Origin: Myxococcota bacterium
Lineage (GTDB): Bacteria; Myxococcota_A; UBA9160; JAFDET01
DNA length: 33,419 nt
NCBI GenBank assembly: GCA_028278065.1
Contig: JANQFA010000107.1
Location: forward strand, 1-33,419
Direction: 5' to 3'
Shown here: positions 2,369 to 33,167 of the stretch, piece by piece
Layout: every line of letters starts with the position of its first letter
Numbering within the stretch: the stretch's first letter is position 1
Notes under the pieces: generated by a model
What the model was told of the DNA's origin: nothing
Seen by the model: the letters and a program-made list of their open reading frames with translations, nothing else
Databases searched by the model: none
Program-made: the position numbers and the translations under genes

Positions 2369-2375
2369 CCCCGTT

Positions 2376-2398: not shown

Positions 2399-2444
2399 CG
2401 CTCGGGTTTGGGCACGAACATAGTAGCAAGCAAAGGCCGTGCAC

Positions 2445-3134: not shown

Positions 3135-3150
3135 TATGACCGAAGTCATA
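3135..3150. promoter_or_regulatory. Operator-like palindrome 1 (TATGAC CGAA GTCATA)
   Basis: A perfect 6+6 inverted repeat with a 4-base spacer, ending 54 bases before the TTG of catalytic subunit A. TGA and TCA are six bases apart, the spacing of CRP and FNR sites, but the half-site TATGAC differs from both TGTGA and TTGAT. It lies between the Crp/Fnr gene and subunit A, so it may serve the subunit A operon. Confidence 0.75.
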
Positions 3151-6773: not shown

Positions 6774-6821
6774 GACGGGGAGAAGCCGGTGACCGTGGAC
6801 GGGGAAACGCCGGTGATCGTG
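6774..6821 (+). repeat. 24-base tandem duplication over the start of paralog B
   Basis: Two adjacent 24-base units (6774-6797 and 6798-6821) differ at three positions, and a third unit begins (GACGGG, 6822-6827). Each carries a GGGGA-like ribosome binding motif and in-frame GTG codons, so the translation start of paralog B is duplicated: GTG occurs at 6789, 6795, 6813 and 6819. In protein the units read DGEKPVTV and DGETPVIV. Confidence 0.8.
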
Positions 6822-9662: not shown

Positions 9663-10190
9663 TCAGTCCGGCTCCGGATCGTCGTCGGCGTACTCGAAGA
9701 GCGGCGGCGGCGCGCCGCCCAGCGCACGACGCGCGCGCTCCACGAGCTGGCGGCGCGCCGCCGCCAGGTGTACCGGGAGCGAAGCGGCGAACACCCACGT
9801 GGCCCAGACGTGGACCTCCGACGAGGCGTCGAGCAGCCCGATCGGAAGCGAGCACGGCACCCAGAGCGCGATCCCACTCAGCGCCAGCAGCGCGCCGGCC
9901 ACGAGCGTGATCGCGACGTGGACCTTGCGCCACGACCAGGGTTCCGCAGCGCCCAGGCGCCGGCCCAGGTCCGCCAGCAGCGGCCGCGTCGCAGCGGCCA
10001 GCGCCAGCAGCGGGGCGGCCACGAAGGTCCACCCCAGCCACAGGTGCACGTCCGCCAGCTCGCGCCCGTAGCCCCCGATCAGCCGCGCGCGGAGGTCGGG
10101 CAGCTGGATCAGGAACCCCGTAGCCAGCAGGGCCAGGGTCGCGACGGCGTGCGTGGCGTGCAGAAGCCTCCGGATCGCGACCCGGCTCAT
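9663..10190 (-). CDS. Cytochrome b561-like membrane protein
   Basis: A 175-residue protein with four hydrophobic spans (about residues 12-30, 48-68, 90-110 and 127-145) and histidines placed as in di-heme b-type cytochromes: His11 and His14 in helix 1, His49 at helix 2, His91 at helix 3, His127 and His141 at helix 4. This is the plan of the FdhI/HydC/b561 proteins that pass electrons between a periplasmic enzyme and the quinone pool. The C-terminus is acidic (FEYADDDPEPD). Its ATG overlaps the stop of the upstream gene (ATGA), so the two are translationally coupled. Longer upstream frames exist, but they overlap the neighbour and lack its composition. It probably links the exported Mo enzymes to the membrane. 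That role is inferred from context. Confidence 0.75.
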   Translation of the reverse strand: MSRVAIRRLLHATHAVATLALLATGFLIQLPDLRARLIGGYGRELADVHLWLGWTFVAAPLLALAAATRPLLADLGRRLGAAEPWSWRKVHVAITLVAGALLALSGIALWVPCSLPIGLLDASSEVHVWATWVFAASLPVHLAAARRQLVERARRALGGAPPPLFEYADDDPEPD

Positions 10191-10630
10191 CCCTTGTCTC
10201 GGGGACCGACGACGCGCCCGTGCAGCAGCGAGTGATAGCGCCAGCGGCCCGGCATGTGCGAGGAGACCGCCCCGATGACGATGGTGAGGGTCAGCACCGG
10301 GACCGCCGCGGCGGGCTGCGCCTGCGCCAGCACCACCAGTCCGATCTTCACCAGCGTGGCCACGCCACGCACCTGGACCAGCCACACGGGCGCGCGGACT
10401 GCCTCCAGGGCCATCAGCGCCGTCCCCGTTCCCACCGTGGCCGTCAGCGCCGCGGCCAGGCGCTCCGCCGCGATTCCATGCACGTGGCCTCCGTAGAGCA
10501 CCCCGAAGGCGAGCAGGTGGGCCGTACGCAGCAGGGTGCGCCAGAGGCGCAGGTGGGGAATCGGCCTGGGGTCGGCCTCGAGCCGGGCCAGGCCTCGCTG
10601 CGGCGGCGGCTGCGACTCGTCCCCGGCCAT
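10187..10630 (-). CDS. Small multi-span membrane protein, possibly electron transfer
   Basis: 147 residues with four hydrophobic segments (about 35-50, 58-78, 88-104 and 108-124) and several His residues (His38, His49, His51, His125, His133, His137) in positions that could bind heme or metal, notably GGHVHG and RYHSLLHGR. I do not recognise the family with certainty. ATG 10630 is chosen because the frame upstream loses membrane-protein character and runs across the divergent mobB gene. Its stop overlaps the start of the cytochrome-b-like gene. The pair is transcribed away from mobB across palindrome 2, so one operator may control both directions. A role as partner of the cytochrome b is inference. 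Confidence 0.65.
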   Translation of the reverse strand: MAGDESQPPPQRGLARLEADPRPIPHLRLWRTLLRTAHLLAFGVLYGGHVHGIAAERLAAALTATVGTGTALMALEAVRAPVWLVQVRGVATLVKIGLVVLAQAQPAAAVPVLTLTIVIGAVSSHMPGRWRYHSLLHGRVVGPRDKG

Positions 10631-10666: not shown

Positions 10667-10682
10667 TATGACCCCGGTCATG
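10667..10682. promoter_or_regulatory. Operator-like palindrome 2 (TATGAC CCCG GTCATG)
   Basis: Same geometry as palindrome 1 with one mismatch at the outer base of the right half. It lies in the 115-base divergent region between the membrane-protein pair (start 10630, minus) and mobB (start 10746, plus), 63 bases upstream of mobB and 36 upstream of the membrane gene, so it could act on both. Confidence 0.7.
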
Positions 10683-11353: not shown

Positions 11354-12016
11354 ATGAAAGCCCGCCTCGCCGCTGCGACCGACCTGGATAGGCTCCTCGA
11401 TCCCGACGACGCGGCCTGGTCGGGCGCGCGGAGCGAACGGCTGAAGCTGGAGGGAACGCCGGCGGGCATGCAGCCGACCGCGGTCATCCGGACGGCGTGG
11501 GCAGACAAGGCCATCGGCGCCGTCGGCCGTGTGGAAGTGGCGGCACTGCACAACGGCCGTGAGCTGGCCTTTCGGCTGGCGTGGGAGGACGCGAGCGAGA
11601 ACGGCGCGCTGGGCGACACGACCTCGTTCCCCGACGGCGCCGCGATCCTGCTGCCGACGCTGCCCACCGCGCCGGCCATCACCATGGGCGCGCCCGGCAT
11701 ACCGGTGAACGCCTGGTACTGGCGCGCCGACGAGCCCGAAGGCGGCCGCCACCTGGTGGCAGAGGGCCTGGGCACCTCGAAGACGCTGGAGGGCGGCGCG
11801 GTGCGCGGGCGCGGCCACTGGAAGAGCGGACGCTGGCAGGTGGTCCTGGCGCGGACGCTCGCGCTGCAGAGCGCGGAGGCGGTGGTGCAGCTCGAGGCGG
11901 GCGGGACGATCGGCTTCGCCGTGGCCATCTGGGAAGGCGGCCGGGGCGAGCGGGCCGGGATCAAGGCCTTCTCGGGTCCCCAGTGGATCGAGCTGCAGCT
12001 CGAGGGCGGGAGGTAG
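11354..12016 (+). CDS. Heme b-binding gamma subunit (ethylbenzene dehydrogenase type)
   Basis: A 220-residue member of the EB_dh heme-binding family, the gamma subunit of type II DMSO-reductase enzymes (EbdC, DdhC, SerC, ClrC relatives). It carries the HNGRELAFRLAWEDAS strand pair, FPDGAAILLP, and TMGAPGIPVNAWYWRAD, where Met111 is the likely axial heme ligand. A Lys near the C-terminus (Lys204 in GIKAFSGPQW) is a candidate for the second ligand, by analogy with the Met/Lys heme of EbdC. No signal peptide is visible, so export would need piggy-backing on a Tat-carrying alpha subunit. AGGAG sits 8 bases before the ATG, inside the mobB stop region. It is the only gamma gene for five alpha subunits in the window. 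Confidence 0.88.
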   Translation: MKARLAAATDLDRLLDPDDAAWSGARSERLKLEGTPAGMQPTAVIRTAWADKAIGAVGRVEVAALHNGRELAFRLAWEDASENGALGDTTSFPDGAAILLPTLPTAPAITMGAPGIPVNAWYWRADEPEGGRHLVAEGLGTSKTLEGGAVRGRGHWKSGRWQVVLARTLALQSAEAVVQLEAGGTIGFAVAIWEGGRGERAGIKAFSGPQWIELQLEGGR

Positions 12017-12022
12017 TCGGCG

Positions 12023-13051
12023 ATGGCACGGAGCGAGCGACAGCTGGCGATGGTGATGGACCTGAACAAGTGCATCGGCTGCCAGACCTGCACGATCGCC
12101 TGCAAGCGGCTTTGGACCCGCGACGAGGGCATGGAGTACATGTGGTGGAACACCGTGAACACCCAGCCCGGGCGCGGCACGCCGCGCGACTGGGAGGAGA
12201 TGGGCGGCGGGTTCCGCGACGGGGACGCCCGTCCCGGCAAGCTCCCCACCCGCCGCGACTTCGGGGACGCCTGGGACTTCAACTACGACGAGGTGTTCCA
12301 CGGGGGCAAGGGCGACACGGTGCACCTGAAGGTGCAGGGCGAGGAGCCCGACTGGGGTCCGAACTGGGACGAGGACCAGGGCGCGGGCGAGTACCCCAAC
12401 GCCTACTACTTCTACCTGCCGCGGATCTGCAACCACTGCACGCACCCGGCGTGCCTGGAGGCGTGTCCCCGCAAGGCCATCGTGAAGCGCGAGGACGACG
12501 GGATCGTGCTGGTGGATGAGGACCGCTGCCGGGGGTACCGCTTCTGCATGGAGGCGTGCCCGTACAAGAAGATCTACTTCAACCACGCGGAGAAGGTGGC
12601 GCAGAAGTGCATCTTCTGTTTCCCGCGGATCGAGCAGGGGGTGGCGAACGCGTGCGCCCGGCAGTGCCCGGGGCGGGTTCGCTTCGTGGGCTACCGGGAC
12701 GACGAATCGGGACCGATCCACAAGCTGGTGGACCGGTGGAAGGTGGCGTTGCCGCTGCACCCGGAGTACGGGACGGAGCCGAACGTGTTCTACGTGCCGC
12801 CGCTGGCGCCGCCTCGTTTCGATGAGAACGGCGACATCGACGAGTCGCAGCCGCGGATCCCGAACGAGTACCTGGTATCGCTCTTCGGCCCGAAGGTGCT
12901 GGACGTGCTGGAGGCGCTGAAGGCGGAGATGGCGAAGACGCGTTCCGGGGGCCGGTCGGAGATCCTGGACACGCTGATCGCCTACAAGTGGAAGGACATG
13001 TTCGGCGGGTTCGACCGCGATCCCGCGACCATCGAGTGGACCCGGAGCTGA
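12023..13051 (+). CDS. Four-cluster Fe-S electron-transfer (beta) subunit 1
   Basis: 342 residues of the NarH/EbdB/DdhB type, carrying electrons between the alpha subunit and heme. Four cysteine groups are seen: C17-C20-C23-C27; C136-C139-C144-C148; C169-(Y172)-C175-C179; C196-C199-C211-C215. In the third group Tyr172 replaces the Cys of a 4Fe-4S motif, as Trp does in NarH, so a [3Fe-4S] cluster is expected. No signal peptide, consistent with co-export with alpha. GGGAGG lies 9 bases before the ATG. The stop overlaps the ATG of paralog C (TGATG). It is the likely partner of C and D, and possibly of A and B, which lack their own. Confidence 0.95.
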   Translation: MARSERQLAMVMDLNKCIGCQTCTIACKRLWTRDEGMEYMWWNTVNTQPGRGTPRDWEEMGGGFRDGDARPGKLPTRRDFGDAWDFNYDEVFHGGKGDTVHLKVQGEEPDWGPNWDEDQGAGEYPNAYYFYLPRICNHCTHPACLEACPRKAIVKREDDGIVLVDEDRCRGYRFCMEACPYKKIYFNHAEKVAQKCIFCFPRIEQGVANACARQCPGRVRFVGYRDDESGPIHKLVDRWKVALPLHPEYGTEPNVFYVPPLAPPRFDENGDIDESQPRIPNEYLVSLFGPKVLDVLEALKAEMAKTRSGGRSEILDTLIAYKWKDMFGGFDRDPATIEWTRS

Positions 13052-15930
13052 TGGCCCGGGGGCTCGACCGGCGGACGTTCCTGATCGCGAGCGCCGCAGG
13101 CGCAGCCAGCCTGACCCTCAGCCTGAACACCCTGAGCTGCTCCGAGCAGCCGGCTCCCCCGCCGCCCGCTGACGAGCCCGCCGGCATCCCCGCGCCGCCC
13201 GAGTACGGCGACTGGCGCGACGTCTACCGCGAGCGCTGGCGCTGGGACAAGGTGGTGCGTTCCAGCCACTGGGTGAACTGCTGGTACCAGGCGCACTGCG
13301 CCTGGAACGTCTACGTCAAGGACGGGATGGTCTGGCGCGAGGAGCAGGTGGCCGACTACCCGCAGACCAACGAGCACGTCCCGGACTTCAACCCGCGAGG
13401 CTGCCAGAAGGGCGCCTGCTTCAGCGAGCGCATGTACGACCCCTGCCGGGTGCAGCATCCCCTCAAGCGCGCGGGCGAGCGGGGCTCGGGCAAGTGGAAG
13501 CGCATCTCCTGGGACCAGGCCCTGGACGAGATCGCCGAGTCGATGGTGGAGACCATCGTCGAGGAGGGCTCGGACCGCGTCGTCTGGGAGCCGGGCCCCG
13601 GCATCACCCTGGGCGCGCAGACGGCGGGGATGTTCCGGCTGGGCACCCTGCTGGACTCCACCAGCCTGGACATGAACACGGAGATCGGCGACGGCCACCG
13701 CGGCGTCGCCGAGACCTTCGGCAAGATCGTGTTCGAGCGCTCGGGGGACGACTACTTCCACTCGGACCTGATCCTGATCTGGGGCGGCAACCCCATCTAC
13801 ACCTCGATCCCCAACGCCCACTTCCTGACCGAGGCCCGCTACAAGGGCGCGCAGATCGTCTGCATCGCACCCGACTACAGCGCCTCGGCCATGCACGGCG
13901 ACCTCTGGGTCCCGGTGAATCCGGGCGCAGACGCGGCGCTGGGCCTCTCCATCTGCCAGGTGCTGCTCGAGGAGGACCTGGCGGACCGCGCCTTCGTGGC
14001 CGAGCAGACGGACCTGCCCGTGCTGGTGCGCGAGGACACCGGCCGCTTCCTGCGCACCTCGGACTTGGAGCAGGACGGCAGCGACGAGGAGCTCTACGTC
14101 CACGACCCCAGGCGGGGCGTGACGCCGCTTCCCCAGCGCAGCCTGGCCCTGGACGGGCTCCAGCCATCGCTGGAGGGCCGCTTCGAGGCGACCCTGGCCG
14201 ACGGCGGCCGCGTCGAGGTGCGTCCGGTCTTCGAGCGCCTGCGCGAGCGGCTCGCCGACTACACGCCGGAGCAGGCCACCGCCCTGTGCGGGACCCCGCC
14301 GTCGGTGATCCGCGACCTGGCCCGACGCATCGGCCGAGCCAAGGCCGTGTCCATGACCACGACCAGCAACTTCGGCAAGTACTACCACGGCAACCTGATC
14401 GAGCGGACCCAGGCCCTGGTCTTCGCGCTCTCCGGGAACTACGGCAAGAAGGGCAGCGGCTTCGTCGGCTTCCCGTTCCTGAACAACGACGGCCTCGAGC
14501 CGTTCATGATCTCCATGTTCGACCTGCGGCTGCGGGCGCTGATCTCCACCATGGGCCTGGTGGAGGAGACCCGGCTCAAGATGGCCGGCTACACCGAGGA
14601 GATGATCGTCTGCGAGCAGAGCCGCCAGGGCTTCGAGCAGGGCCGCTCCCACAGCGGCGCCCTCTTCTGGTACGTGCACGGCGGCATGCTGGAGGCCAGC
14701 GAGCCGCTCCAGGACTGGGACCCGTACCTGAAGCGGCCGGTGCGCGAGGTTCTGGACGAGGCACTGGACAAGGGCTGGCAGCAGGTCTGGCCCAGGCGGG
14801 GCGACGATCCGCGCGTGATGATCTCGGTGGTCAGCAACCCGTTGCGCCGGATCCGCTGCTACCCGCTGCTGCTGAAGCACCTGTGGCCCAAGCTGCGGAC
14901 CATCGTGACCATCGACTGGCGCATGACCTCCACGGCGCTCCAGTCCGACTACGTGCTGCCCGCCGCCGGCTGGTACGAGCGCACCGAGCACAAGTGGGTG
15001 ACGCCGCTGATGCCCTTCATCCACGCGGGAGAGAAGGCCACCAGCTACCAGGAGGCCAAGTCCGACTGGGAGATCTTCTCGCGCCTGGCCGAGGCGGTGG
15101 ACCGGCGCGCGGCGCAACGCGGTGCCGAGACGTTCACGGATCGCGCCGGCCGCGAGCGCCCCCTGAAGGGGCTGTACAAGACGTTCTCTTCCGACGGCGA
15201 GTTCGGCCACACCGACGACGACAAGGTGTGCAAGGCCCTCATCGACCACTCCACCAACCTGGAGGGCGTGGAGTGGGAGGACCTGAAGAAGCGCGGCTGG
15301 GCGCGGCACACCAGCACCGGGAAGAGCATCTCGACCATCGGGACCGCCACCGACTTCGAGCCCGGCGAGACCATCACCCCGCTCACCCGGCACGTACTCG
15401 ACAAGGACCCCTACCCCACCCTGTCGCGGCGCATGCAGTTCTACCTGGACCAGGACCTGTACCTCGAGATGGGGGAGACCCTGCCGCTGCACAAGGACCC
15501 GCCCACGGCGGGCGGCCGCTACCCGCTGATGCTGACCGGCGGCCACACCCGCTGGAGCATCCACTCGGCCTGGCGCGACGACAGGCTGATGCTCCAGCAG
15601 CAGCGCGGCGAGCCGGTGATGTGGATCAGCGTCCCGGACGCCGAGGCGCGCGGCGTGAGCGACGGGGACCGCGTGCGGGTCTTCAACGACCTGGACTCCT
15701 TCATCGTCATGGTGAAGGTGGCGCCCGCCGTCCGGACCGGACAGCTCATCCTGTACCACGCCTGGGAGAACTTCCAGTTCGCCAAGGGCAAGGGCTTCCA
15801 GAACCTGATTCCGAGCCCGCTGAACCCGGTGGAGCTGGCCGGCGGCCAGTTCCACCTGCGACCCATGACCATCTGCATGCAGCCCAGCCACACGGACCGG
15901 GACACCCGCGTCGAGGTAGAGAGGATTTGA
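13051..15930 (+). CDS. Type II DMSO-reductase-family catalytic (alpha) subunit, paralog C
   Basis: 959 residues from the ATG that overlaps the beta stop. Tat signal LDRRTFLIASAAGAASLTL (RR at 7-8), then Cys30 and a Pro-rich linker (PAPPPPADEP) before the mature domain. FS0 ligands: His73, Cys77, Cys83 and Cys118; the CX5C spacing (NCWYQAHC) is longer than in its paralogs. Candidate Mo ligand Asp214 in IGDGHRGVAETFG. The C-terminus has TGGHTRWSIHSAW and YHAWENFQF. VVSNPLRRIR places it with B and D. It sits after gamma and beta, which should be its partners, and overlaps paralog D (TTGA). The Cys30 context (TLSC) is a poor lipobox. Substrate unknown. Confidence 0.94.
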   Translation: MARGLDRRTFLIASAAGAASLTLSLNTLSCSEQPAPPPPADEPAGIPAPPEYGDWRDVYRERWRWDKVVRSSHWVNCWYQAHCAWNVYVKDGMVWREEQVADYPQTNEHVPDFNPRGCQKGACFSERMYDPCRVQHPLKRAGERGSGKWKRISWDQALDEIAESMVETIVEEGSDRVVWEPGPGITLGAQTAGMFRLGTLLDSTSLDMNTEIGDGHRGVAETFGKIVFERSGDDYFHSDLILIWGGNPIYTSIPNAHFLTEARYKGAQIVCIAPDYSASAMHGDLWVPVNPGADAALGLSICQVLLEEDLADRAFVAEQTDLPVLVREDTGRFLRTSDLEQDGSDEELYVHDPRRGVTPLPQRSLALDGLQPSLEGRFEATLADGGRVEVRPVFERLRERLADYTPEQATALCGTPPSVIRDLARRIGRAKAVSMTTTSNFGKYYHGNLIERTQALVFALSGNYGKKGSGFVGFPFLNNDGLEPFMISMFDLRLRALISTMGLVEETRLKMAGYTEEMIVCEQSRQGFEQGRSHSGALFWYVHGGMLEASEPLQDWDPYLKRPVREVLDEALDKGWQQVWPRRGDDPRVMISVVSNPLRRIRCYPLLLKHLWPKLRTIVTIDWRMTSTALQSDYVLPAAGWYERTEHKWVTPLMPFIHAGEKATSYQEAKSDWEIFSRLAEAVDRRAAQRGAETFTDRAGRERPLKGLYKTFSSDGEFGHTDDDKVCKALIDHSTNLEGVEWEDLKKRGWARHTSTGKSISTIGTATDFEPGETITPLTRHVLDKDPYPTLSRRMQFYLDQDLYLEMGETLPLHKDPPTAGGRYPLMLTGGHTRWSIHSAWRDDRLMLQQQRGEPVMWISVPDAEARGVSDGDRVRVFNDLDSFIVMVKVAPAVRTGQLILYHAWENFQFAKGKGFQNLIPSPLNPVELAGGQFHLRPMTICMQPSHTDRDTRVEVERI

Positions 15931-18842
15931 CGGACGTACCCACGATCGGACTGTCGCGGCGCACGTTCCTGGCGGCGGGCGCCGCCGGGGTCACGGCCCT
16001 GGGCCTCGGCCTGTGCCGCCTCGAGGAGAAGGCAGCGCCCCCGCCTGCACCGGACGAGCCCGCACCGCCGCTCCCGTACGACGGCCTCGGCGACCTCTAC
16101 CGCGACGCCTGGCGCTGGGACCGCGTGGTGCGCAGCTCCCACGCCCGCGCCAACTGCATCTCCACCTGCTCGTGGAACGTCTTCGTCAAGGACGGGATCG
16201 CCTGGCGCGAGGAGCAGAACGCGCTCTACGAGGCCTCGGAGCCCGGCGTCCCGGACTTCAACCCGCGCGGCTGCCAGAAGGGCGCCTGCTACACGCACCT
16301 GATGTACGAGCCCTCCCGCGTGGTCCATCCCCTGCGCCGGGTGGGCGAGCGCGGCTCGGGCCGCTGGAAGCGCGTCTCCTGGGACGAGGCGCTGACGGAG
16401 ACCGCCGACGCCATGATCGACGCGTCGGTGGCGTCCGGCACCGGGGCCATCGTCTACGACCACGGCACCACCAACATCGACTTCGGGCCCGACACGGTGG
16501 GCGAGATGCGCCTCTTCCGCAGCCTCAACGCCACGGTCATCGACTCCTGGGCGGGCGTCGGCGACATGCCCTACGGAGCGGTGCAGACCTGGGGCATGTA
16601 CAACTGCGAGGGCACGTCGGACGACTGGTTCAAGTCCGACTTCATCGTGGTCTGGGTGGGGAATCCCGCCTACACGCGAATCCCCGAAGTCCACTTCATG
16701 CACGAGGCGCGCTACCGCGGCGCCAAGCTGGTGGTGATCGCGCCCGACTACAACGCCAGCGCGATCCACGCCGACTACTGGCTCAATCCCAGGGTCGGCA
16801 CCGACGCCGCCCTGGCCCTGGCCATGGCCCAGGTGATCCTGCGCGAAGACCTGTACGACGCGGCGTACGTGCGCGAGCAGACCGACCTGCCCATCCTGGT
16901 CCGCGAGGACAACGGCCGTTACCTGCGCGCGTCCGACCTGAAGCGCAACGGCGACGACAAGGTCCTCTTCTTCTGGGACGAGGCGCGCGACCGGCTGGCG
17001 AAGGTGCCCGGCGCCAAGGGCGAAGGCGGCCGCTCGCTGGCCCTGGGCGCCCTGCGCCCTGCCCTGGCCGGACGCAGGACGGTGAAGCTCGTCGACGGCA
17101 CCGAGGTCTCGGTGCGGCCGCTGCTGGAGCGGATGCGCGAGCACCTGGATGCGGAGTACACGCCGGAGCGGGCCGCCGCCGCCAGTGGCGTGTCGGCCGG
17201 CACCATCGAGCGCCTGGCCCGGGAGATGGCCGGGGCGGACAGCGCCATGATCTACTCGTCGTGGGGCGCCTGCAAGCACTACCACAGCGACCTGGTACAG
17301 CGCGCCAAGATCCTGCTGATGGCACTGACCGGGAACCAGGGCAAGAGCGGCGGCGGGCTGCGCGTGGCCTCCTGGTGGCCCATCGAGGGCTTCGACCGCC
17401 TCTCCTCGGGCTCGGGCGAGTTCGACCTGACCACCAAGGTCAAGGCCATCGTGCGCAAGGTCACCGGCAACCTGGGCTGGCGGGACTTCGAGGATCTGAT
17501 GCTGTCGATGCTGCCGCGCCGTGGCAACACGCCGCTCATGCCCTGGCTGTACGTCCACGCCGGCTACAAGGAGATCTGGGACCGCAAGGAGTGGCAGGAC
17601 CCGGCCGTGCCGCGCTCCACCGCCGAGTACATGAAGGAGGCGATGGACGCGGGCTGGATTCCGATCCGACCGGACCCGGGCGTCGATCCCAAGGTCTTCA
17701 TCTTCACCGGGCCCAACCCGTTGCGGCGCTGGCCCTCGCCCCAGGTGGCGCGCAAGCACCTCTGGCCCAAGCTCGACTGGATCGTGGACGTGAACTTCAA
17801 GATCAGCACGTCCGGGCGCCAGGCCGACCTGATCCTGCCCACCGCCGGCTACTACGAGAGGGACTCGCTGAAGTACTCCCAGGCCTACCTGCCGTACCTG
17901 GTGATGTGCGAGAAGGCCGTGGAGCCCCTGGGCGAGGCCAAGCCGGAGTGGGAGATCTTCGGCCTGCTGGCGCGCAGGATCCAGGGCCGCGCCGAGGAGC
18001 GCGGCGTGTCCCTGGTGCGCGACTGCGTCGGTGGCGACGTGGACCTGGCGAAGACCTACGACATGTGGAGCGGCGACGGAGAGCTGCACGAGGGCAATCC
18101 CAAGGCCGTCCTCGACAAGCTGCTGCGCCTGACCACCTCCACCGGCAAGAAGGGCCTCGAGGCGACCCAGGCTACGGGCATGCTGCCCATCGTCGAAGCC
18201 AAGGGGGACTGGAACCCCCTCTACTCCGTCGCCTCGGACTACGAGCCCGGCAAGACGCTCTACCCCCACGCGCGCATGGTCGAGGACAAGGAGATCTGGC
18301 CCACGCTGACGGGCCGCCAGCAGTTCCTGATCGAGCACCCCTGGTACGAGGAGATGGGCGAAACCCTGCCGGTGCACAAGGAGCCGCCGCGCGCCGGCGG
18401 CGAGTATCCTCTGCGCATCACCGGCGGCCATACGCGCTGGTCGATCCACGCCACCTGGCGGGACTCCCAGCTCATGCTCCGACTCCAGCGCGGCGAGCCT
18501 GCGCTCTGGATGTCGGACCGCGACGCCGCCGAGCGTGGTATCGCCGATGGCGATCGGGTCCGCGTGCACAACGACAACGGCGAGTTCGAGGCCGTCGCGA
18601 AGCTGGCGGCTGCCGTGCAGCCGGGCCAGGTGGTGATCTACCACGCCTGGGAGCCCTACCAGTTCAAGGACTGGAAGGGCCAGCAGGAGCCCGTCGTGGC
18701 ACCGTGGAAGGCCCTCCACCTGGCGGGCGGCTACGAGCAGATCCACTACCGCGCCATCTACGGCGCGCCCGGCCACTCCCCGCGCGGCGGCACCGTGGAC
18801 GTCGAGCTCGCCGGTCGCGCCGGTCAGCGCGCCTCGGTGTAG
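15927..18842 (+). CDS. Type II DMSO-reductase-family catalytic (alpha) subunit, paralog D
   Basis: 971 residues from TTG 15927, which overlaps the stop of paralog C (TTGA) and has AGAGG just upstream; no ATG or GTG lies nearby that would keep the signal peptide. Tat signal LSRRTFLAAGAAGVTALGL (RR at 11-12), Cys30, then a Pro-rich linker like that of C. FS0 ligands: His72, Cys77, Cys81 and Cys116 (HX4C, CX3C, CX34C). Candidate Mo ligand Asp213 in VGDMPYGAVQTWG. C-terminal TGGHTRWSIHATW and YHAWEPYQFKDW. TGPNPLRRWP and the QTWG block make it closest to B among the paralogs by eye. It is last in the mobB operon; its 3' end overlaps the convergent acyl-CoA ligase gene by 19 bases. Confidence 0.94.
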   Translation: MTDVPTIGLSRRTFLAAGAAGVTALGLGLCRLEEKAAPPPAPDEPAPPLPYDGLGDLYRDAWRWDRVVRSSHARANCISTCSWNVFVKDGIAWREEQNALYEASEPGVPDFNPRGCQKGACYTHLMYEPSRVVHPLRRVGERGSGRWKRVSWDEALTETADAMIDASVASGTGAIVYDHGTTNIDFGPDTVGEMRLFRSLNATVIDSWAGVGDMPYGAVQTWGMYNCEGTSDDWFKSDFIVVWVGNPAYTRIPEVHFMHEARYRGAKLVVIAPDYNASAIHADYWLNPRVGTDAALALAMAQVILREDLYDAAYVREQTDLPILVREDNGRYLRASDLKRNGDDKVLFFWDEARDRLAKVPGAKGEGGRSLALGALRPALAGRRTVKLVDGTEVSVRPLLERMREHLDAEYTPERAAAASGVSAGTIERLAREMAGADSAMIYSSWGACKHYHSDLVQRAKILLMALTGNQGKSGGGLRVASWWPIEGFDRLSSGSGEFDLTTKVKAIVRKVTGNLGWRDFEDLMLSMLPRRGNTPLMPWLYVHAGYKEIWDRKEWQDPAVPRSTAEYMKEAMDAGWIPIRPDPGVDPKVFIFTGPNPLRRWPSPQVARKHLWPKLDWIVDVNFKISTSGRQADLILPTAGYYERDSLKYSQAYLPYLVMCEKAVEPLGEAKPEWEIFGLLARRIQGRAEERGVSLVRDCVGGDVDLAKTYDMWSGDGELHEGNPKAVLDKLLRLTTSTGKKGLEATQATGMLPIVEAKGDWNPLYSVASDYEPGKTLYPHARMVEDKEIWPTLTGRQQFLIEHPWYEEMGETLPVHKEPPRAGGEYPLRITGGHTRWSIHATWRDSQLMLRLQRGEPALWMSDRDAAERGIADGDRVRVHNDNGEFEAVAKLAAAVQPGQVVIYHAWEPYQFKDWKGQQEPVVAPWKALHLAGGYEQIHYRAIYGAPGHSPRGGTVDVELAGRAGQRASV

Positions 18843-23809: not shown

Positions 23810-23825
23810 TATGACCGGGGTCATA
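23810..23825. promoter_or_regulatory. Operator-like palindrome 3 (TATGAC CGGG GTCATA)
   Basis: A perfect 6+6 inverted repeat, 61 bases upstream of the acyl-CoA dehydrogenase start on the minus strand. The distance is nearly the same as that of palindrome 1 from paralog A, supporting a shared activation geometry. It ties the acyl-CoA operon to the same regulator as the Mo enzymes. Confidence 0.75.
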
Positions 23826-23951: not shown

Positions 23952-23967
23952 CATGACGGCGGTCATA
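23952..23967. promoter_or_regulatory. Operator-like palindrome 4 (CATGAC GGCG GTCATA)
   Basis: One mismatch in the outermost base of the left half. It ends 100 bases before the GTG of paralog E, farther than in the other units, so a longer leader is expected. It shares the 15-base core TGACGGCGGTCATAC with palindrome 5. Confidence 0.72.
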
Positions 23968-24067: not shown

Positions 24068-26839
24068 GTGGCCGGAACGACCGGGAATTGGGCGGACGCG
24101 TATCGCAGCAAGTGGACCTGGGACAAGGTCACCTGGGGCAGTCACTCGGTGGACTGCTACCCCGGCGGCTGCCCGTGGCGCGTGTTCAGCAAGGACGGGA
24201 AGATCGTCCGCGAGGAGCAGGCCGGCACGTTCGCACCGGTGGAGCCCGGCATTCCCGACATGAACCCGATGGGCTGCCAGAAGGGTGCCTGCTGGAGCCA
24301 CTGCCACTACTCCCAGGACCGCGTCACTCAGCCGCTCAAGCGCACCGGCGAGCGCGGCGAGGGCCGGTTCGAGCCGATCTCGTGGGAGCAGGCGTTCAGC
24401 GAGATCGCCGACGGGATGCTCGACGCGATCCAGGACCAGGGCGCCGCGTCGATCATCAACCTGTTCACGCCGGAGCCCGGGGCCGCTCCGGCGCGCGTCT
24501 TCTCCGACGTGCTGGGCCTGCCCACCACCGACGGCAACGCGGAGTTCCAGGACTTCAGTCCCGGCTGGCACATCACGTGGGGTCTCTACAACCCGACCGC
24601 CAGCATGGACGATTGGTTCCTGGCGGATCTCACCCTCATCTGGCACGCGAACCCCGTGTACACCAACATCCACTGGTACCACTACGTGGCCGAGTCCCGG
24701 TACAACGGCGGCGAGGTGGTCACCATCGCGCCGGACTACAGCCCGTCCGCGATCCACGCCGACTACCACCAGCCGATCCGCATCGGCACCGATGCGGCGC
24801 TGGCCCTGGCCATGTGTCAGGTGATCATCGACGCGGGCCTCTACCAGAAGCAATTCGTGCAGGAGCAGACGGACCTGCCGCTGCTGGTGCGCTGCGACAA
24901 CGGCCGCTTCCTGCGCGGCACCGACATCATGGAGGCCGACCGCGACGACCAGTTCTTCTGGTGGGATGCTTCCAAGGACGTGCTGACCGCCGCGCCGCGC
25001 CACACCCTGGCGCTGGGCGGGGTGGATCCCGCCCTGGAGGGCCGATACGAGGTCACGCTCAAGGATCTGTCCAGCGTCGAGGTGGAGCCCGTCTTCTCGG
25101 TGCTCAAGCGCCATCTGGAGGCCTATTCGCCCGAGGAGGCCGGACGGATCTGCGAGATCCACCCGGACAACATCCGCAAGCTGGCCCGCAAGGTGGCCAC
25201 GCGGAAGACCAAGATCTTCATCGGCTGGAACTCGGGCAAGTACTACCACGGCGACCTGATGGAGCGCGCCATGGCCCTGCTGCTGGGCCTGACCGGCAAC
25301 TGGGGCAAGAAGGGCACCGGCACGCGGTCCTGGGCGATCTCGGGCATGGACGGCGAGATCTTCCTGGGCGGCAAGGAGGCGCCGGGCCAGGAGGCCGCCC
25401 AGAAGCTGATCGCCGGCATGATCGCCATGCGCCGGCTCATCGCCGCCGACGACCCCACCCTGACCGCGGAGATGATCAACAACCGCATGATGAAGCTGGC
25501 CGCCGACGCCGACGGCGCCGCGGGCTTCCCCATGCCGCCCGCCTTCCTCTGGTACTACCAATACGGCTACAAGGAGCGCTGGAACGACCGCGAGAATCAC
25601 GACCCGTCCATGAAGCGCAGCTTCGACGAGTACGTCGAGGAGGCCATCGAGAAGGGTTGGTGGGACCCGCGCTACTCCAAGGTCTACCAGGACGTGGAGC
25701 CGCGGGTGCTGTTCGAGTCGGGGGGCAACGTGCTGCGCCGCCAGCGCGGCGGTCAGAAGCTGCTGCTCGAGCACCTGTGGCCCAAGCTCCAGACCATCGT
25801 CTCGGTGGACTACCGGATCACCACGACCGGCCTCCACTCGGACTACATCCTGCCCGCGGCCCAGCACTACGAGAAGCTGGGCCACAGCATGCCGTCGGTG
25901 CACCACCTGAACTACGTGCTCTGCGACCGGGCCCAGGAGCCCCAGGGCGAGGCGCTGCCCGACGTGGAGATCGGCTTCCGGCTGCTGGAGGCGATCGAGG
26001 AACGCGCGGCGGCCCGCGGCATGTCGGAGTTCATCGACGCCACGGGCAAGGCGCGGAGCCTCCAGAACCTGACCGACGCGCTCACCCACCAGGGCGCCCT
26101 GCGCGACGAGGAGAAGCGCATCGACGAAGCGATCCGCGATAGCGGCGTCTACGGCGTCCTGCCCAAGGGCAGCAGTCTGGCGACGCTGCGCGAGAAGGGC
26201 CACGTGCGCTGGGAGAACTGGGGGATGATCCTGCACGGCGTGCCCCAGGCCTCGACCCTGAAGCCCGACGAGGTGCACAACCCGCTGCGCTGGCACACCG
26301 AGGACAAGATCCCCTACGACACGCTGGTCCGACGCGCCCAGTACTACATCGACCACGAGTGGTTCCTGGAGGCCGGGGAGCAGCTCCCCACCCACAAGGA
26401 ACCGCCCAACGCGGGCGGGGGGCGGCGCCGCTTCCAGATGACCAGTGGACACAACCGCTGGAGCATCCACAGCATGAACATGACCAACAACATCCTGCTG
26501 AACACGCATCGGGGAGAGCCCTTCGTGTTCATCAACGACACGGATGCCGCGGACCTGAGTGTCGAGAACGGCGCCAAGGTCAAGCTCGTCAGCGACATGG
26601 GTGAAGTGCTGGTCGCGGCGAAGGTCACGCCGTCGTGCCGACCCGGCCAGGTGATCCTGTACAACGGCTTCGAGCCCTACATGCACGAGAACTGGTACGG
26701 ACAGGCGGATCTGGAGCCGGGGCACGTGAAGCACCTGGGCTTCGCGGCCGGTTACGGCCACCTGGACTGGCGGATCCTCTCCTGGCAGCCGATCCCCGCC
26801 GACCGGGCGGTTCGGGTAGACGTCGAAACCCTGGGCTGA
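24068..26839 (+). CDS. Type II DMSO-reductase-family catalytic (alpha) subunit, paralog E, no Tat signal
   Basis: 923 residues from GTG 24068, preceded by AAGGAGGA at 7 bases; an in-frame stop at 24032-24034 excludes an upstream extension. The protein begins MAGTTGNWADAYRSKWTWDK, i.e. directly at the position where the mature domain of its paralogs starts, so the twin-arginine signal is absent. FS0 ligands: His26, Cys30, Cys35 and Cys70 (HX3C, CX4C, CX34C). Candidate Mo ligand Asp162 in QDFSPGWHITWG. C-terminal TSGHNRWSIHSMN and YNGFEPYMHENW differ from the YHAWEPYQF of the others. SGGNVLRRQRGG groups it with A. Beta subunit 2 follows after 42 bases. It is either cytoplasmic or exported with a partner. 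Substrate unknown. Confidence 0.94.
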   Translation: MAGTTGNWADAYRSKWTWDKVTWGSHSVDCYPGGCPWRVFSKDGKIVREEQAGTFAPVEPGIPDMNPMGCQKGACWSHCHYSQDRVTQPLKRTGERGEGRFEPISWEQAFSEIADGMLDAIQDQGAASIINLFTPEPGAAPARVFSDVLGLPTTDGNAEFQDFSPGWHITWGLYNPTASMDDWFLADLTLIWHANPVYTNIHWYHYVAESRYNGGEVVTIAPDYSPSAIHADYHQPIRIGTDAALALAMCQVIIDAGLYQKQFVQEQTDLPLLVRCDNGRFLRGTDIMEADRDDQFFWWDASKDVLTAAPRHTLALGGVDPALEGRYEVTLKDLSSVEVEPVFSVLKRHLEAYSPEEAGRICEIHPDNIRKLARKVATRKTKIFIGWNSGKYYHGDLMERAMALLLGLTGNWGKKGTGTRSWAISGMDGEIFLGGKEAPGQEAAQKLIAGMIAMRRLIAADDPTLTAEMINNRMMKLAADADGAAGFPMPPAFLWYYQYGYKERWNDRENHDPSMKRSFDEYVEEAIEKGWWDPRYSKVYQDVEPRVLFESGGNVLRRQRGGQKLLLEHLWPKLQTIVSVDYRITTTGLHSDYILPAAQHYEKLGHSMPSVHHLNYVLCDRAQEPQGEALPDVEIGFRLLEAIEERAAARGMSEFIDATGKARSLQNLTDALTHQGALRDEEKRIDEAIRDSGVYGVLPKGSSLATLREKGHVRWENWGMILHGVPQASTLKPDEVHNPLRWHTEDKIPYDTLVRRAQYYIDHEWFLEAGEQLPTHKEPPNAGGGRRRFQMTSGHNRWSIHSMNMTNNILLNTHRGEPFVFINDTDAADLSVENGAKVKLVSDMGEVLVAAKVTPSCRPGQVILYNGFEPYMHENWYGQADLEPGHVKHLGFAAGYGHLDWRILSWQPIPADRAVRVDVETLG

Positions 26840-26881: not shown

Positions 26882-27916
26882 ATGGGAACCATCACCACTT
26901 CGAAGCGGCAGCTCGCCTGGGTCTTCGACCTGAACAAGTGCATCGGCTGTCAGACCTGCTCGGTCGCATGCAAGGTCCTGTGGCCCGGCGAGGACGAGGG
27001 CACCGAGGCCATGTGGTGGATGACGGTCAACACCCAGCCCGGACGCGGCACGCCGCGCGGCTGGGAGGAGATGGGAGGCGGCTACCAGGAGGGGAAGCTG
27101 CAGCTCGGCAAGATCCCCAGCGACGAGGAGACCGGCGGAGGTTGGGACTTCAACTACGACGACGTGCTGCGCGGCGGCGGAGGCCGCGGCACGCACCTCC
27201 GGAAGATATCCGGCAGCAAGACCTGGGGCATGAACTGGGACGAGGATGAGGGCGGCGGCACGTTCCCCAACGCCTACTACTTCTACCTGCCGCGCCTGTG
27301 CAACCACTGCACGGAGCCCGCGTGTCTGGAAGCGTGTCCCAACGACGCGATCTTCAAACGCGAAGAGGACGGGCTCGTGCTGCGGGACGAGGATGCCTGC
27401 CAGGGCGCGCAGCAGTGCCGGCGAGCCTGCCCCTACAAGAAGATCTACTTCAACCGGGCCCGCAACGTGAGCCAGCACTGCATCGGCTGCTTCCCGCGCG
27501 TCGAGCAGGGTGTGGCGCCGGCCTGCGTGCGCCAGTGTCCGGGACGCGCCGCGTTCATCGGCTTCGACGACGACCCGGGCGGCGTGGTCGACAAGCTGGT
27601 CCACAAGTGGAAGGTCGCCCTGCCGCTGCACCCGGAGCGCGGCACCGGCCCCAACGTCTACTACGTGCCCCCGCTGGCGCCGGCGCCGCTCGGGGAAGAC
27701 GGCGGCTTCAAGGAGGACGGCGACCGGATCCCGCCCGCCTACCTGGAGTCGCTGTTCGGGTCGGAGGTGCACGGCGCCCTGGACGTGCTGCGCACGGAGT
27801 TGGAGAAGAAGCGCCGCGGCCAGGAGTCCGAGCTGATGGACACGCTGATCCTGTACCGCTGGAAGGACGCACTGGGGCCGCTGAGCCGCGACCCGGCGGA
27901 CATCCGCTGGGACTAG
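26882..27916 (+). CDS. Four-cluster Fe-S electron-transfer (beta) subunit 2
   Basis: 344 residues, clearly paralogous to beta 1 along the whole length. Cysteine groups: C20-C23-C26-C30; C140-C143-C148-C152; C173-(A176)-C179-C183; C200-C203-C215-C219. In the third group Ala176 stands where NarH has Trp and beta 1 has Tyr, so again a [3Fe-4S] cluster is likely, with a different pocket. AAGGAG lies upstream of the ATG. It follows paralog E and is presumably its dedicated partner. No signal peptide, and here the partner alpha lacks one too. No gamma gene follows; the next gene is under its own palindrome. Confidence 0.95.
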   Translation: MGTITTSKRQLAWVFDLNKCIGCQTCSVACKVLWPGEDEGTEAMWWMTVNTQPGRGTPRGWEEMGGGYQEGKLQLGKIPSDEETGGGWDFNYDDVLRGGGGRGTHLRKISGSKTWGMNWDEDEGGGTFPNAYYFYLPRLCNHCTEPACLEACPNDAIFKREEDGLVLRDEDACQGAQQCRRACPYKKIYFNRARNVSQHCIGCFPRVEQGVAPACVRQCPGRAAFIGFDDDPGGVVDKLVHKWKVALPLHPERGTGPNVYYVPPLAPAPLGEDGGFKEDGDRIPPAYLESLFGSEVHGALDVLRTELEKKRRGQESELMDTLILYRWKDALGPLSRDPADIRWD

Positions 27917-27940: not shown

Positions 27941-27956
27941 GGTGACGGCGGTCATA
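27941..27956. promoter_or_regulatory. Operator-like palindrome 5 (GGTGAC GGCG GTCATA)
   Basis: The right half is perfect and the left half keeps TGAC, with two outer mismatches. It lies in the 89-base gap after beta 2 and ends 49 bases before the ATG of the flavin oxidase-cytochrome c gene, similar to the 54 bases at paralog A. It shares a 15-base core with palindrome 4. Confidence 0.62.
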
Positions 27957-28005: not shown

Positions 28006-29901
28006 ATGGGCGGAGTGCGTGGCGACGGGGCCAGTCGACGCAGCTTCCTCAAGGCAGTGGGCGCTGCGGTGGGAGCCGCAGCGCTGCCGCTGGGCGGCGG
28101 GCCGACGACGCGGGCCGCAGCGCTGCCGCTGGACGGCGGGCCGACGGGGCGGGCCGCAGCGCTGCCGCTGGGCGACGGGCCGACGGGGCGGGCCGCCGGC
28201 AGCAACGCCTACGACGCGGTGGTCCTCGGCGGCGGCTTCGCGGGAGTGTGCGCCGCCCGCGAGCTGCGCCACGCCGGACTGCGCGTCCTGCTCCTCGAGG
28301 CCCGCAACCGGCTGGGCGGGCGGACCTTCACCGCCCGGCTGGGTCAGGAGCTCTTCGACCTGGGCGGGACGTGGGTCCACAGCACCCAGCCCCACGTCTT
28401 CGCCGAGATCAACCGCTACGGGCTGGAGCTGGTCGAGAACCCGGCCGTGATCCCCGAGCTGCTGCTCTGGTGGGACGGCGCGCGCGTGCGCCAGGCGGGT
28501 GTGCGAGAGTGGGCGCCGCTCCTGAAGGAGGCGTTGTGCGCGACCGGCGGGGAGACGCCGGAGGCGCCCATGTCGGTGCTCAAGGGCTACGCGCTGCTGC
28601 AGCGGCAGATGGTCGAGTTCCACGCCGGAGCCGCCGCCGCGTTCCCGCGCCCCTTCGAGCCGTTCTTCGCCGACGCCTGGCGCGATGCCGACGCGCTCAC
28701 GGTCCGCGATCGCCTGGACCAGATGGACCTGCCGGACTCGCGGCGGGCGCTGCTGGAGGGCGTGCTGGGCGCCAGCGCCCACGGCGCCTTCGACCAGGCG
28801 AGCCTGCTGGAGATGCTGCGCTGGTGGGCCCTGTCGGGGCACGACCTCCAGCGCTACTCGGACAGCGTGGCGCGCTTCCGGTTCCGCCACGGCACCGTCA
28901 GCTTGATCGAGGCCATGCTCGAGGACGGGCGTCCCGACGTGCGGCTCGGGGCGCCGGTGGTCCAGGTGACCCAGAATGGCGAGGAGGTCGCGGTCGTCAC
29001 CGAAGCCGGCGAGCGCTTTCGCGCGCGCGCGGTCGTCGCGGCCCTTCCGCTGAACGTGCTGGCGAAGATCCGCTTCACACCGGAATTGCACCCCGACAAG
29101 GTCGCCGCCTCGCGCGAGCGACACGCCGGTGCCGGGATCAAGCTCTACGCGCGCGTGCGGGGCGAGCTCCCGCCCGTGGCGATCTTCGCCCCGGAGTCGG
29201 AGCCGCTCTCTTCGGTCTTCACCATGGCGCAGGGCGAGCACGGGAGCGAGCTGGTGGCGTTCGGGACCGACCCGCGACGCATCGACGCCCACAGCGCCCC
29301 GGCGGTGCAGGCGTTCCTGCGCCGCTTCCTCCCGGACGTGGAGGTCCGCGACACGGTCTCCTACGACTGGCACCTGGACCCCTGGTCGCTGGGCACCTGG
29401 TGCGTCCTCCGCAAGGGACAGATGGGGAAGTACCTGCCGGGCCTGCGCGCGCCCCAGGGACGCGTGCACTTCGCCGGCGCCGACTGGGCCCTGGGCTGGC
29501 GCGGCTTCATCGACGGGGCCATCGAGATGGGCAACCGGGTGGCGCAGCAGGTGGTCGCCCAGCTCGAGGAGCGAGCGGAGCCGCAGGAGGCCGCGACAGA
29601 CGGCCGCGACGGAGAGCCTGCCCTCCAGTCGTGCGCGGTGTGTCATCCCAGCGATGCGTCCGGCGCGCACGGCGTGGGGCCGAACCTGCGCGGCGTCCAC
29701 GGGCGCGACGCCGCCGCCGACCCCGGCTTCGCCTACTCGCGCGCTCTGCGCGAGCGCGGCGTCACCTGGACCGACGCCGAGCTCGATGCCTTCCTGGCCG
29801 ATCCCGCCGGCTACGTCCCGGGCACCACCATGCCCTTTTCCGGGATCGCCGATCCGCAGGAGCGCGCCGCCGTGATCCGCGCGCTGCGTCAGCTCCGGTG
29901 A
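28006..29901 (+). CDS. Tat-exported flavin amine oxidase fused to cytochrome c
   Basis: 631 residues. A Tat signal (SRRSFLKAVGAAVGAAALPL) is followed by three copies of a 13-residue repeat (25-63), then a flavin monoamine oxidase domain: dinucleotide fold VVLGGGFAGVCAARE with G75-G80, LEARNRLGGRTF, LGGTWVHSTQPHVF, and the C-terminal FAD motif FAGADWALGWRGFIDGAIEMG (split as FAGADWALGWRG and FIDGAIEMG). Residues about 535-631 are a class I cytochrome c: CAVCH (C543, C546, H547) and TTMPFSG with Met608 as likely axial ligand. Such a fusion implies that electrons from the flavin go to heme c instead of O2. ATG 28006 has GGAGGG upstream; TTG 27982 is an alternative. Substrate unknown; an amine or a C-C bond next to a carbonyl are possibilities. 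Confidence 0.92.
   Translation: MGGVRGDGASRRSFLKAVGAAVGAAALPLGGGPTTRAAALPLDGGPTGRAAALPLGDGPTGRAAGSNAYDAVVLGGGFAGVCAARELRHAGLRVLLLEARNRLGGRTFTARLGQELFDLGGTWVHSTQPHVFAEINRYGLELVENPAVIPELLLWWDGARVRQAGVREWAPLLKEALCATGGETPEAPMSVLKGYALLQRQMVEFHAGAAAAFPRPFEPFFADAWRDADALTVRDRLDQMDLPDSRRALLEGVLGASAHGAFDQASLLEMLRWWALSGHDLQRYSDSVARFRFRHGTVSLIEAMLEDGRPDVRLGAPVVQVTQNGEEVAVVTEAGERFRARAVVAALPLNVLAKIRFTPELHPDKVAASRERHAGAGIKLYARVRGELPPVAIFAPESEPLSSVFTMAQGEHGSELVAFGTDPRRIDAHSAPAVQAFLRRFLPDVEVRDTVSYDWHLDPWSLGTWCVLRKGQMGKYLPGLRAPQGRVHFAGADWALGWRGFIDGAIEMGNRVAQQVVAQLEERAEPQEAATDGRDGEPALQSCAVCHPSDASGAHGVGPNLRGVHGRDAAADPGFAYSRALRERGVTWTDAELDAFLADPAGYVPGTTMPFSGIADPQERAAVIRALRQLR
28078..28194 (+). repeat. Three tandem 39-base repeats in the signal-peptide linker
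   Basis: Units at 28078-28116, 28117-28155 and 28156-28194 differ at only a few positions. Each encodes 13 residues of the form AALPL(G/D)(G/D)GPT(T/G)RA. They lengthen the stretch between the Tat hydrophobic core and the folded flavin domain. The near identity points to recent expansion by slippage or recombination. Confidence 0.9.
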
Positions 29902-30052: not shown

Positions 30053-30718
30053 ATGACGACCGAATCCCTGGAAGGTCTGGAGAGCGCCGAGGGCCGCCTC
30101 GCGGCGGCGCGCAGCCTGGCCTACCACGTCTTCGCGGGCCTCTTCGAGTACCCGGACGGTCCGCAGGCCGAGGCGATCCGCTCGGGCGCCCTCGCCGGGA
30201 AGCTGCGCCAGGCGCTGGTCGCCGTGGACCCGTCCGTGGACGAGGCCGCCGACTGGGAGGCGCTGGGCGAGGCCGGCGAGGGCGACGACCTGGCCGTGGA
30301 GTTCACGCGGCTCTTCGACGTGGGTAGCGGCGCGCCACCGTGCCCGCTGCACGGCGGCCTGTACGGCGGTGCCCGCATGAAGACCATGGAAGAGGCGGTG
30401 CGCTTCTACAACTTCTTCGGCCTCACCCTCTCGGAGACGCCACGCGAGCTGCCCGACCACCTGATCACGCAGCTCGAGTTCCTGCACTTCCTCGCCTTCC
30501 GCGAGGCCCAGGCCCTGGAGTCCGGAAGCGACGCGGGAGCCTGGCAGCGCGCCCAGCGCGACTTCGTCGGCCGACACCCGGGCCGCTGGGTGCCGCAGCT
30601 CCTCGCCCGCCTGGAGAAGGAGGAGCCCATGCCCTTCTTCCGCGAGCTGGTGGGCCGACTCGCCGGCTTCCTGGAGGACGAGGCCCGGCGCCTGGCAGAG
30701 GCGGCGCCGGCAGCCTGA
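30053..30718 (+). CDS. TorD/DmsD-type chaperone for Tat-exported molybdoenzymes
   Basis: 221 residues, all-helical, with the family core: VEFTRLFDVGSGAPPCPLHGGLYGG (split VEFTRLFDVGSG and PCPLHGGLYGG), YNFFGLTLSE and LPDHLITQLEFLHFLAFREA. The PDH..(L)E...(L) block is the hallmark of these cytoplasmic chaperones, which bind the Tat signal or the apo-enzyme until the Mo cofactor is in. ATG 30053 with GGGAGG upstream is preferred over an open extension back to 29927, whose residues are low-complexity. It follows the flavin oxidase gene after 151 bases. As the only chaperone seen, it probably serves paralogs A to D. Confidence 0.88.
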   Translation: MTTESLEGLESAEGRLAAARSLAYHVFAGLFEYPDGPQAEAIRSGALAGKLRQALVAVDPSVDEAADWEALGEAGEGDDLAVEFTRLFDVGSGAPPCPLHGGLYGGARMKTMEEAVRFYNFFGLTLSETPRELPDHLITQLEFLHFLAFREAQALESGSDAGAWQRAQRDFVGRHPGRWVPQLLARLEKEEPMPFFRELVGRLAGFLEDEARRLAEAAPAA

Positions 30719-32550: not shown

Positions 32551-32778
32551 ATGACGAAGCGGCTCACGCGCTCTGGAAACAGCTTGGCCCTCGTGATCGA
32601 CCGGCCTCTCCTGGAAGCGCTGGACATCGACGCGGACACGGAGCTCGAGCTGTCCACCGATGGCGACGTCCTCGTCGTGACTCCACTGCGCGACCGCAAG
32701 CGAAGGCGTCGGGTCGCGGAGCTCGTCGCCGAAGCGCACGAGCAATACGGCGGCGTGTTCCGACGCCTCGCCGAGTGA
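32551..32778 (+). CDS. AbrB/MazE-type antitoxin
   Basis: 75 residues with the swapped-hairpin DNA-binding start MTKRLTRSGNSLALVIDRPL and the ELELSTDGDVLVVTPLR strand pair typical of AbrB/MazE proteins. The C-terminal half (RKRRRRVAELVAEAHEQYG) would wrap the toxin. ATG 32551 begins the conserved domain exactly; an in-frame ATG at 32524 gives a 9-residue extension with no family support. Its stop overlaps the start of the Doc gene (GTGA), the usual coupling of such pairs. It probably represses its own promoter. Confidence 0.85.
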   Translation: MTKRLTRSGNSLALVIDRPLLEALDIDADTELELSTDGDVLVVTPLRDRKRRRRVAELVAEAHEQYGGVFRRLAE

Positions 32779-33167
32779 CCGAACCGCTCTTCCTGACCCT
32801 CGACGAGGTCGTGGCGATCCACGCCGATCAGGTCCGGCGGTACGGCGGGCAGACGAGGCTGCGAGACCTCGGCTTGCTGCAATCGGCATTGGGCATGCCC
32901 GAGACCACTTTCGAGGGCGAGTTCGTTCACGGAACCCTCTTCGAGATGGCGGCGGCCTACGTCTTCCACGCCGCCCGCAAGCACCCGTTCGTGGACGGGA
33001 ACAAGCGAACAGCGCTCATGTGTGCACTGGTGTTCCTCGGACTGAACAGTTGGCGACTCGAGGCGGAGTCGGACGCGCTCTACGAGCTGGTCGACGGCGT
33101 TGCTGCAGGCTCGGTCGACAAGGCCGAGGTCGCGGTCCTTTTGCGCCAGAACTCTGTCGGCCGCTAG
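32775..33167 (+). CDS. doc: Doc-type (Fic-fold) toxin
   Basis: 130 residues of the death-on-curing family. The Fic motif HPFVDGNKRTA (about residues 75-85) carries the catalytic His and the phosphate-binding loop. LRDLGLLQSALGMPETTFEG is the conserved N-terminal element (split LRDLGLLQSAL and GMPETTFEG). Doc phosphorylates elongation factor Tu in known cases and so arrests translation. The partner here is an AbrB/MazE-like antitoxin, which is a known alternative to Phd. GTG 32775 overlaps the antitoxin stop. Confidence 0.9.
   Translation: MTEPLFLTLDEVVAIHADQVRRYGGQTRLRDLGLLQSALGMPETTFEGEFVHGTLFEMAAAYVFHAARKHPFVDGNKRTALMCALVFLGLNSWRLEAESDALYELVDGVAAGSVDKAEVAVLLRQNSVGR

Follow-up and report, generated by a model that had tools for sequence, protein, structure and literature searches.

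Among described flavin amine oxidoreductases (FAOs), the closest counterparts of the protein analysed here are Pnao, the best match in the PDB by phmmer (1.6e-107), and NicA2, the next (about 2e-78). Both are dehydrogenases that use cytochrome c (PMC9396064). Pnao reacts poorly with O2 and rapidly with the cytochrome CycN, its aromatic cage is formed by Trp434 and Phe470, and its Trp424–Tyr422 pair has been proposed to act as an electron wire (PMC9396064). FAOs were long taken for oxidases, and for most cytochrome-linked members the physiological substrate is not known. According to the main text of Akram et al. 2025 (PMC12224317), oxidases and dehydrogenases cannot be told apart from sequence alone, and fusions of a TAT signal, an FAO and a cytochrome c (TAT-FAO-CytC) constitute subclade 3F, for which intramolecular transfer from FADH2 to heme is predicted from sequence. 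The fusion architecture had thus already been predicted in the literature; our search for other amine oxidase–cytochrome c fusions returned this paper alone, and in its main text we found neither kinetics for any fused FAO-CytC protein nor the molybdenum-regulon context described below.

Architecture of the fusion protein

The window, the whole 33,419-nucleotide stretch of DNA that was analysed, carries on its plus strand one open reading frame that joins an FAO to a cytochrome c and contains the following features.

28006 to 29901, plus strand: FAO–cytochrome c fusion, 631 codons without an internal stop, ATG start, GGAGGG ribosome site 5' of the ATG
28033 to 28053, plus strand: Tat twin-arginine motif SRRSFLK (residues 10–16, S10 to K16), both arginines invariant among the aligned fusions
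28075 to 28196, plus strand: 39-bp tandem repeat, 3.1 copies, encoding (AAALPLxxGPTxR)3 between the signal peptide and the FAD domain
28210 to 29571, plus strand: FAO domain, residues 69–522 (PF01593, 2.4e-59; Pnao 7e7h/7u6l, 1.6e-107)
28228 to 28245, plus strand: FAD dinucleotide-binding glycines G75 to G80 (GGGFAG), invariant or nearly so
29140 to 29142, plus strand: K379, corresponding to Lys340 of NicA2, adjacent to flavin N5
29362 to 29370, plus strand: Y453-D-W455, equivalents of Pnao Tyr422 and Trp424, the proposed wire pair
29398 to 29400, plus strand: W465, aromatic-cage residue (Pnao Trp434, NicA2 Trp427)
29506 to 29508, plus strand: F501, second aromatic-cage residue (Pnao Phe470, NicA2 Asn462)
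29572 to 29619, plus strand: Ala/Glu-rich linker, about residues 523–538, of variable length in the fusion alignment
29620 to 29898, plus strand: class I cytochrome c domain, about residues 539–631 (PF00034; phmmer matches to cytochromes c)
29632 to 29646, plus strand: heme-attachment motif CAVCH, residues 543–547 (C543-A-V-C546-H547), cysteines and histidine invariant
29830 to 29832, plus strand: M609 in GTTMPF, predicted axial (distal) heme ligand, invariant in all seven fusions

The Pfam Amino_oxidase profile PF01593 matches residues 78–516 (202 bits against a cut-off of 19.8) over its positions 1–442 of 443, giving the full-length domain that, with the FAD-binding Rossmann motif also present, marks the FAO superfamily. 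Cytochrom_C (PF00034) covers residues 541–628 at 26.2 bits against a cut-off of 21.3, and residues 532–630 match cytochromes c in the PDB (phmmer, best 8e-22); the CxxCH motif and distal methionine of class I cytochromes c are both in place. The twin arginines, the heme cysteines and histidine and the methionine are invariant in six aligned fusions and in a Gemmatimonadetes fusion, and the 39-bp tandem repeat is not present in the aligned relatives. The sequence-only reading had described one chain holding an FAD amine oxidase fold and a C-terminal CxxCH cytochrome with a Met ligand; the Pfam matches, CAVCH and M609 confirm it, down to the exact coordinates. Its proposal of a Tat-exported FAO with a built-in acceptor is likewise favoured by the invariant Tat motif, the fused cytochrome and the use of cytochrome c by the kindred Pnao and NicA2. 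An AlphaFold model built from nine sequences was poor (pLDDT 59, cytochrome domain not resolved) and is unfit for estimating an FAD–heme distance.

Active site and proposed electron path

Both cage residues and the N5 lysine are conserved in the fusion as W465, F501 and K379. L496 was considered as the counterpart of the NicA2 cage asparagine and rejected, as the residue count aligns that asparagine with F501. At the wire position, all seven fusions have tyrosine, as do three relatives whose cytochrome c is encoded by a separate neighbouring gene; histidine stands there in NctB, an oxidase, and in two relatives for which no neighbouring cytochrome c was found, and phenylalanine in L069, despite an adjacent cytochrome c. 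The wire tyrosine thus appears to track a linked cytochrome c, as a correlation rather than proof.

The fusion is probably an amine dehydrogenase of the periplasm that carries its electron acceptor with it, passing flavin electrons to its own heme. The folded protein with its FAD would be exported by Tat and heme c attached outside; the FAD would take a hydride from the C–N bond of an amine, and the two electrons would leave the flavin singly via Trp455 and Tyr453 to the heme bound by Cys543, Cys546, His547 and Met609. The heme would then pass them to a soluble cytochrome c and on to aa3 or cbb3 oxidases, and direct reaction with O2 is predicted to be poor. The genetic signposts of an FAO dehydrogenase that uses cytochrome c, namely a TAT signal and a linked cytochrome c, are both found here. 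The genome encodes aa3- and cbb3-type oxidases and their c-type cytochromes, a possible electron sink for the fusion; given these oxidases, the earlier suggestion of anaerobic metabolism is not borne out.

A periplasmic oxidase whose flavin reacts with O2, with the cytochrome domain as a side path or structural element, would account for the retention of Lys379, a lysine that in true oxidases is associated with reactivity towards O2, and would agree with the main text of Akram et al. 2025 (PMC12224317), where most tested Tat-FAOs lacking an adjacent cytochrome c were oxidases. However, the dehydrogenases NicA2 and Pnao also have this lysine, the heme ligands are invariant across seven genomes, and the same text treats an operon cytochrome c, here fused, as the stronger predictor of dehydrogenase function, which leaves an oxidase unlikely.

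The FAO fold also houses desaturases, the HpnE and CrtI models match weakly, and genes for acyl-CoA ligase, thiolase, acyl-CoA dehydrogenase and ethylbenzene-dehydrogenase-like molybdenum enzymes lie nearby, so that a flavin desaturase or hydroxy-compound dehydrogenase, preparing or finishing a steroid or terpenoid substrate for the molybdenum hydroxylases, was also weighed. The HpnE and CrtI matches, however, span the FAD-binding stretch only and fall far below their cut-offs, the best relatives are amine enzymes that share the aromatic cage, and FMN is bound covalently in the known delta-24 steroid desaturase, which is not similar to phytoene desaturases; such a role is quite improbable.

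Molybdoenzyme neighbourhood

The fusion gene follows an iron-sulfur beta-subunit gene at a distance of about 90 bp and is itself followed, about 150 bp further on, by a TorD-like chaperone gene; its surroundings are listed below.

24068 to 26839, plus strand: type II DMSO-reductase-family molybdenum alpha subunit without a Tat signal (TIGR03479, 6.5e-243; ethylbenzene dehydrogenase alpha 2ivf, 8.8e-196)
26882 to 27916, plus strand: iron-sulfur beta subunit (TIGR03478, 3.3e-139)
30053 to 30718, plus strand: TorD-like type II chaperone, delta (TIGR03482, 7.2e-44)
11354 to 12016: EB_dh gene (Pfam)

Ethylbenzene dehydrogenase is the best structural match of the alpha subunit at 24068. No Tat signal was detected in this alpha or in its orthologs, and the four other molybdenum alphas of the window have Tat-like leaders. 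The alpha at 24068 is probably cytoplasmic and, because it lacks the signal, would occupy a compartment separate from the exported fusion and make no contact with it. With its orthologs in G001, G004, G010, G011 and G018 it forms a Tat-less, ethylbenzene-dehydrogenase-like clade that is predicted to be cytoplasmic.

Five type II DMSO-reductase-family alphas lie in this 33-kb window (3205–6045, 6789–9647, 13036–15930, 15927–18842 and 24068–26839), and related genomes contain up to 19 molybdenum alpha matches each, an unusual expansion. A small upstream ORF and a Fic/Doc gene at 32593–33167 are possibly a toxin–antitoxin pair.

Within the genus, the arrangement was followed in two congeners. In G001, the orthologous alpha–beta pair lies on a contig that ends inside a CDP-alcohol phosphatidyltransferase gene. 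That gene also opens a second contig (the two share 315 bp at 96% identity), where it is followed by a radical SAM gene, the fusion and an MFS_2 transporter; this overlap of contig ends suggests, without proving, that alpha–beta and fusion are neighbours there too. Comparison of G002 (L017, 8569–13501) with G001 (L032/L016) shows the block PhyH, phosphatidyltransferase, radical SAM and fusion to be kept, and no molybdenum alpha was detected in the G002 genome, which looks like a clean loss of the alpha–beta pair in G002 or a gain in the sister species. Outside the genus, neighbourhoods differ and no conserved molybdenum neighbourhood was found next to the fusion gene, although G034 has two molybdenum alphas 7–13 kb from it.

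In the ethylbenzene dehydrogenase operon (ebdABCD order), the gamma subunit gene lies between those for beta and the chaperone. The fusion gene occupies this gamma place, no EB_dh gene adjoins the 24068 alpha–beta pair (that of the window lies at 11354), and fusion and alpha promoters have a palindrome in common, but the idea that the fusion is an electron-transfer subunit replacing a missing heme b gamma, and not an independent amine dehydrogenase, is the least probable of those considered, since the alpha is probably cytoplasmic here and in the orthologous genomes, G002 retains the fusion with no molybdenum alpha detected in its genome, the fusion stands away from molybdenum genes in other genomes, its amine-site residues are intact, and Pfam finds no EB_dh domain (PF09459), the mark of a gamma subunit, in the protein.

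Palindrome and candidate regulator

Six copies of the palindrome TGAC-N4-GTCA lie in the window, where 0.33 would be expected, and none of 100 shuffles reached that count. Five copies lie in promoter positions, before the molybdenum alpha at 3205, mobB, the acyl-CoA dehydrogenase operon, the molybdenum alpha at 24068 and the fusion.

2439 to 3107, plus strand: Crp/Fnr-family regulator (cNMP_binding and HTH_Crp_2, Pfam), predicted palindrome binder from co-occurrence with the palindrome
3137 to 3148: palindrome between the Crp/Fnr regulator and the molybdenum alpha at 3205
10669 to 10680: palindrome between the gene at 10187–10630 (minus strand) and mobB (plus strand)
23812 to 23823: palindrome upstream of the acyl-CoA dehydrogenase operon (minus strand)
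23954 to 23965: palindrome upstream of the molybdenum alpha at 24068, identical to the copy at 27943
27943 to 27954: palindrome TGACGGCGGTCA, about 50 bp before the fusion ATG, with the same site upstream in both congeners

The sites of the fusion gene and of the alpha at 24068 have 15 identical bases in common. In each of the three genus members the palindrome is conserved ahead of the fusion gene; the two congeners are close relatives, so that these are not three independent observations. Five other genomes also have it before their orthologous molybdenum alphas, and copies with a single mismatch precede two more paralogs. Twenty genomes were compared for close orthologs of the regulator, defined by 45% identity or more to the 2439–3107 protein: the 13 that have one contain at least two strand matches of ATGAC-N4-GTCATA, and the seven that lack one contain none or one. 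Regulator and palindrome presence thus go together in all 20 genomes (Fisher p = 1.3e-5, not corrected for kinship).

From these patterns we infer that the Crp/Fnr-family protein binds the palindrome, which apparently marks a Crp/Fnr-type regulon of type II molybdenum enzymes across the order. In the window's genus, expression of the fusion would be tied to this regulon of molybdenum hydroxylases. The link to the molybdenum enzymes raised by the sequence-only reading holds in part: promoter sites and gene order make co-regulation likely, but a compartment shared with the adjacent enzyme is improbable for lack of a Tat signal. The link is lineage-specific, because elsewhere in the order the genomes that carry the fusion have the regulator and palindromes but show no site at the fusion gene and a different neighbourhood.

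A hemerythrin-domain gene (1937–2584, minus strand) is divergent from the regulator; this pair recurs in G002, and a paralogous pair lies at G000:C60.

Distribution and origin of the fusion

An unbroken, one-frame fusion is present in five other genomes of the order, two from the window's genus (G001, G002) and three from other families (G034, G043, G027), with identities of 61–79% by genome search and 62–81% over the aligned fusions, and a Gemmatimonadetes MAG (L060) carries one that is 63% identical. Seven genomes in two phyla therefore encode it as a single ORF, and this recurrence excludes the artefactual joining of two genes by a frame error. The fusion is rare and its distribution patchy, as strong matches occur in 7 of 379 genomes of the phylum, one of them (G018) an FAO without cytochrome, and no plasmid match covers 80% of the query. 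This G018 protein (L021) is 55% identical and shares its contig with multicopper nitrite-reductase-like and SCO1-like genes, both named by eye from sequence.

In the tree, the seven fused rows cluster with the unfused G018 protein (96/99), while the fused rows alone group weakly (64/55), so that a single origin of the fusions is neither favoured nor disfavoured. Unfused proteobacterial relatives have a homologous cytochrome c gene directly downstream, in the same FAO-then-CytC order, and these cytochromes are about 40–47% identical to the fused domain of the window; the fusion therefore plausibly arose by the joining of such neighbours.

Implications

What is new is that the fusion lies within a molybdenum-enzyme cluster and seems to be expressed along with it. 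A tentative proposal, for which the chances are modest, is that it performs the exported first step of the Crp/Fnr-controlled molybdenum-hydroxylase regulon: it would deaminate a nitrogenous compound, a cytoplasmic molybdenum enzyme would then hydroxylate the carbon skeleton with water, and the tethered heme would spare both O2 and a diffusible partner. If true, FAO dehydrogenases and type II DMSO-reductase-family hydroxylases would be linked in a pathway not described before. The promoter evidence, comprising regulator, site and co-regulated molybdoenzymes, offers a concrete lead to the physiological substrate. The natural fusion also offers the cleanest way to test direct electron transfer from flavin to heme, since its acceptor is unable to diffuse off and both flavin and heme can be followed in a single purified chain.

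Comparison with known systems

Pnao of Pseudomonas putida S16 (7e7h, 7u6l) and the fusion are identical in the Trp/Phe cage, the N5 lysine and the Tyr–Trp pair, whereas the acceptor of Pnao is the separate cytochrome CycN and that of the fusion is built in. In the pocket of the fusion, Val253 and Ser257 take the place of Pnao Trp220 and Asn224; its substrate probably differs from that of Pnao, and these replacements make pseudooxynicotine unlikely as the true one. NicA2 resembles the fusion as a Tat-exported FAO and reduces a periplasmic cytochrome c, but the cytochrome of the NicA2/CycN pair is separate, its cage has Asn462 in place of Phe501, and its score is lower. In Marinicaulis (L063), Lysobacterales (L064) and Sphingobium (L067), the FAO-then-CytC order is that of the fusion and the cytochrome is homologous, with the difference that FAO and cytochrome are encoded separately and each has a leader of its own; identity to the fusion protein is 37–39% for the FAOs of L063 and L064. 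By architecture, as distinct from tree position, the fusion matches subclade 3F as presented in the main text of Akram et al. 2025 (PMC12224317), in which TAT signal, FAO and cytochrome c are likewise held in one polypeptide.
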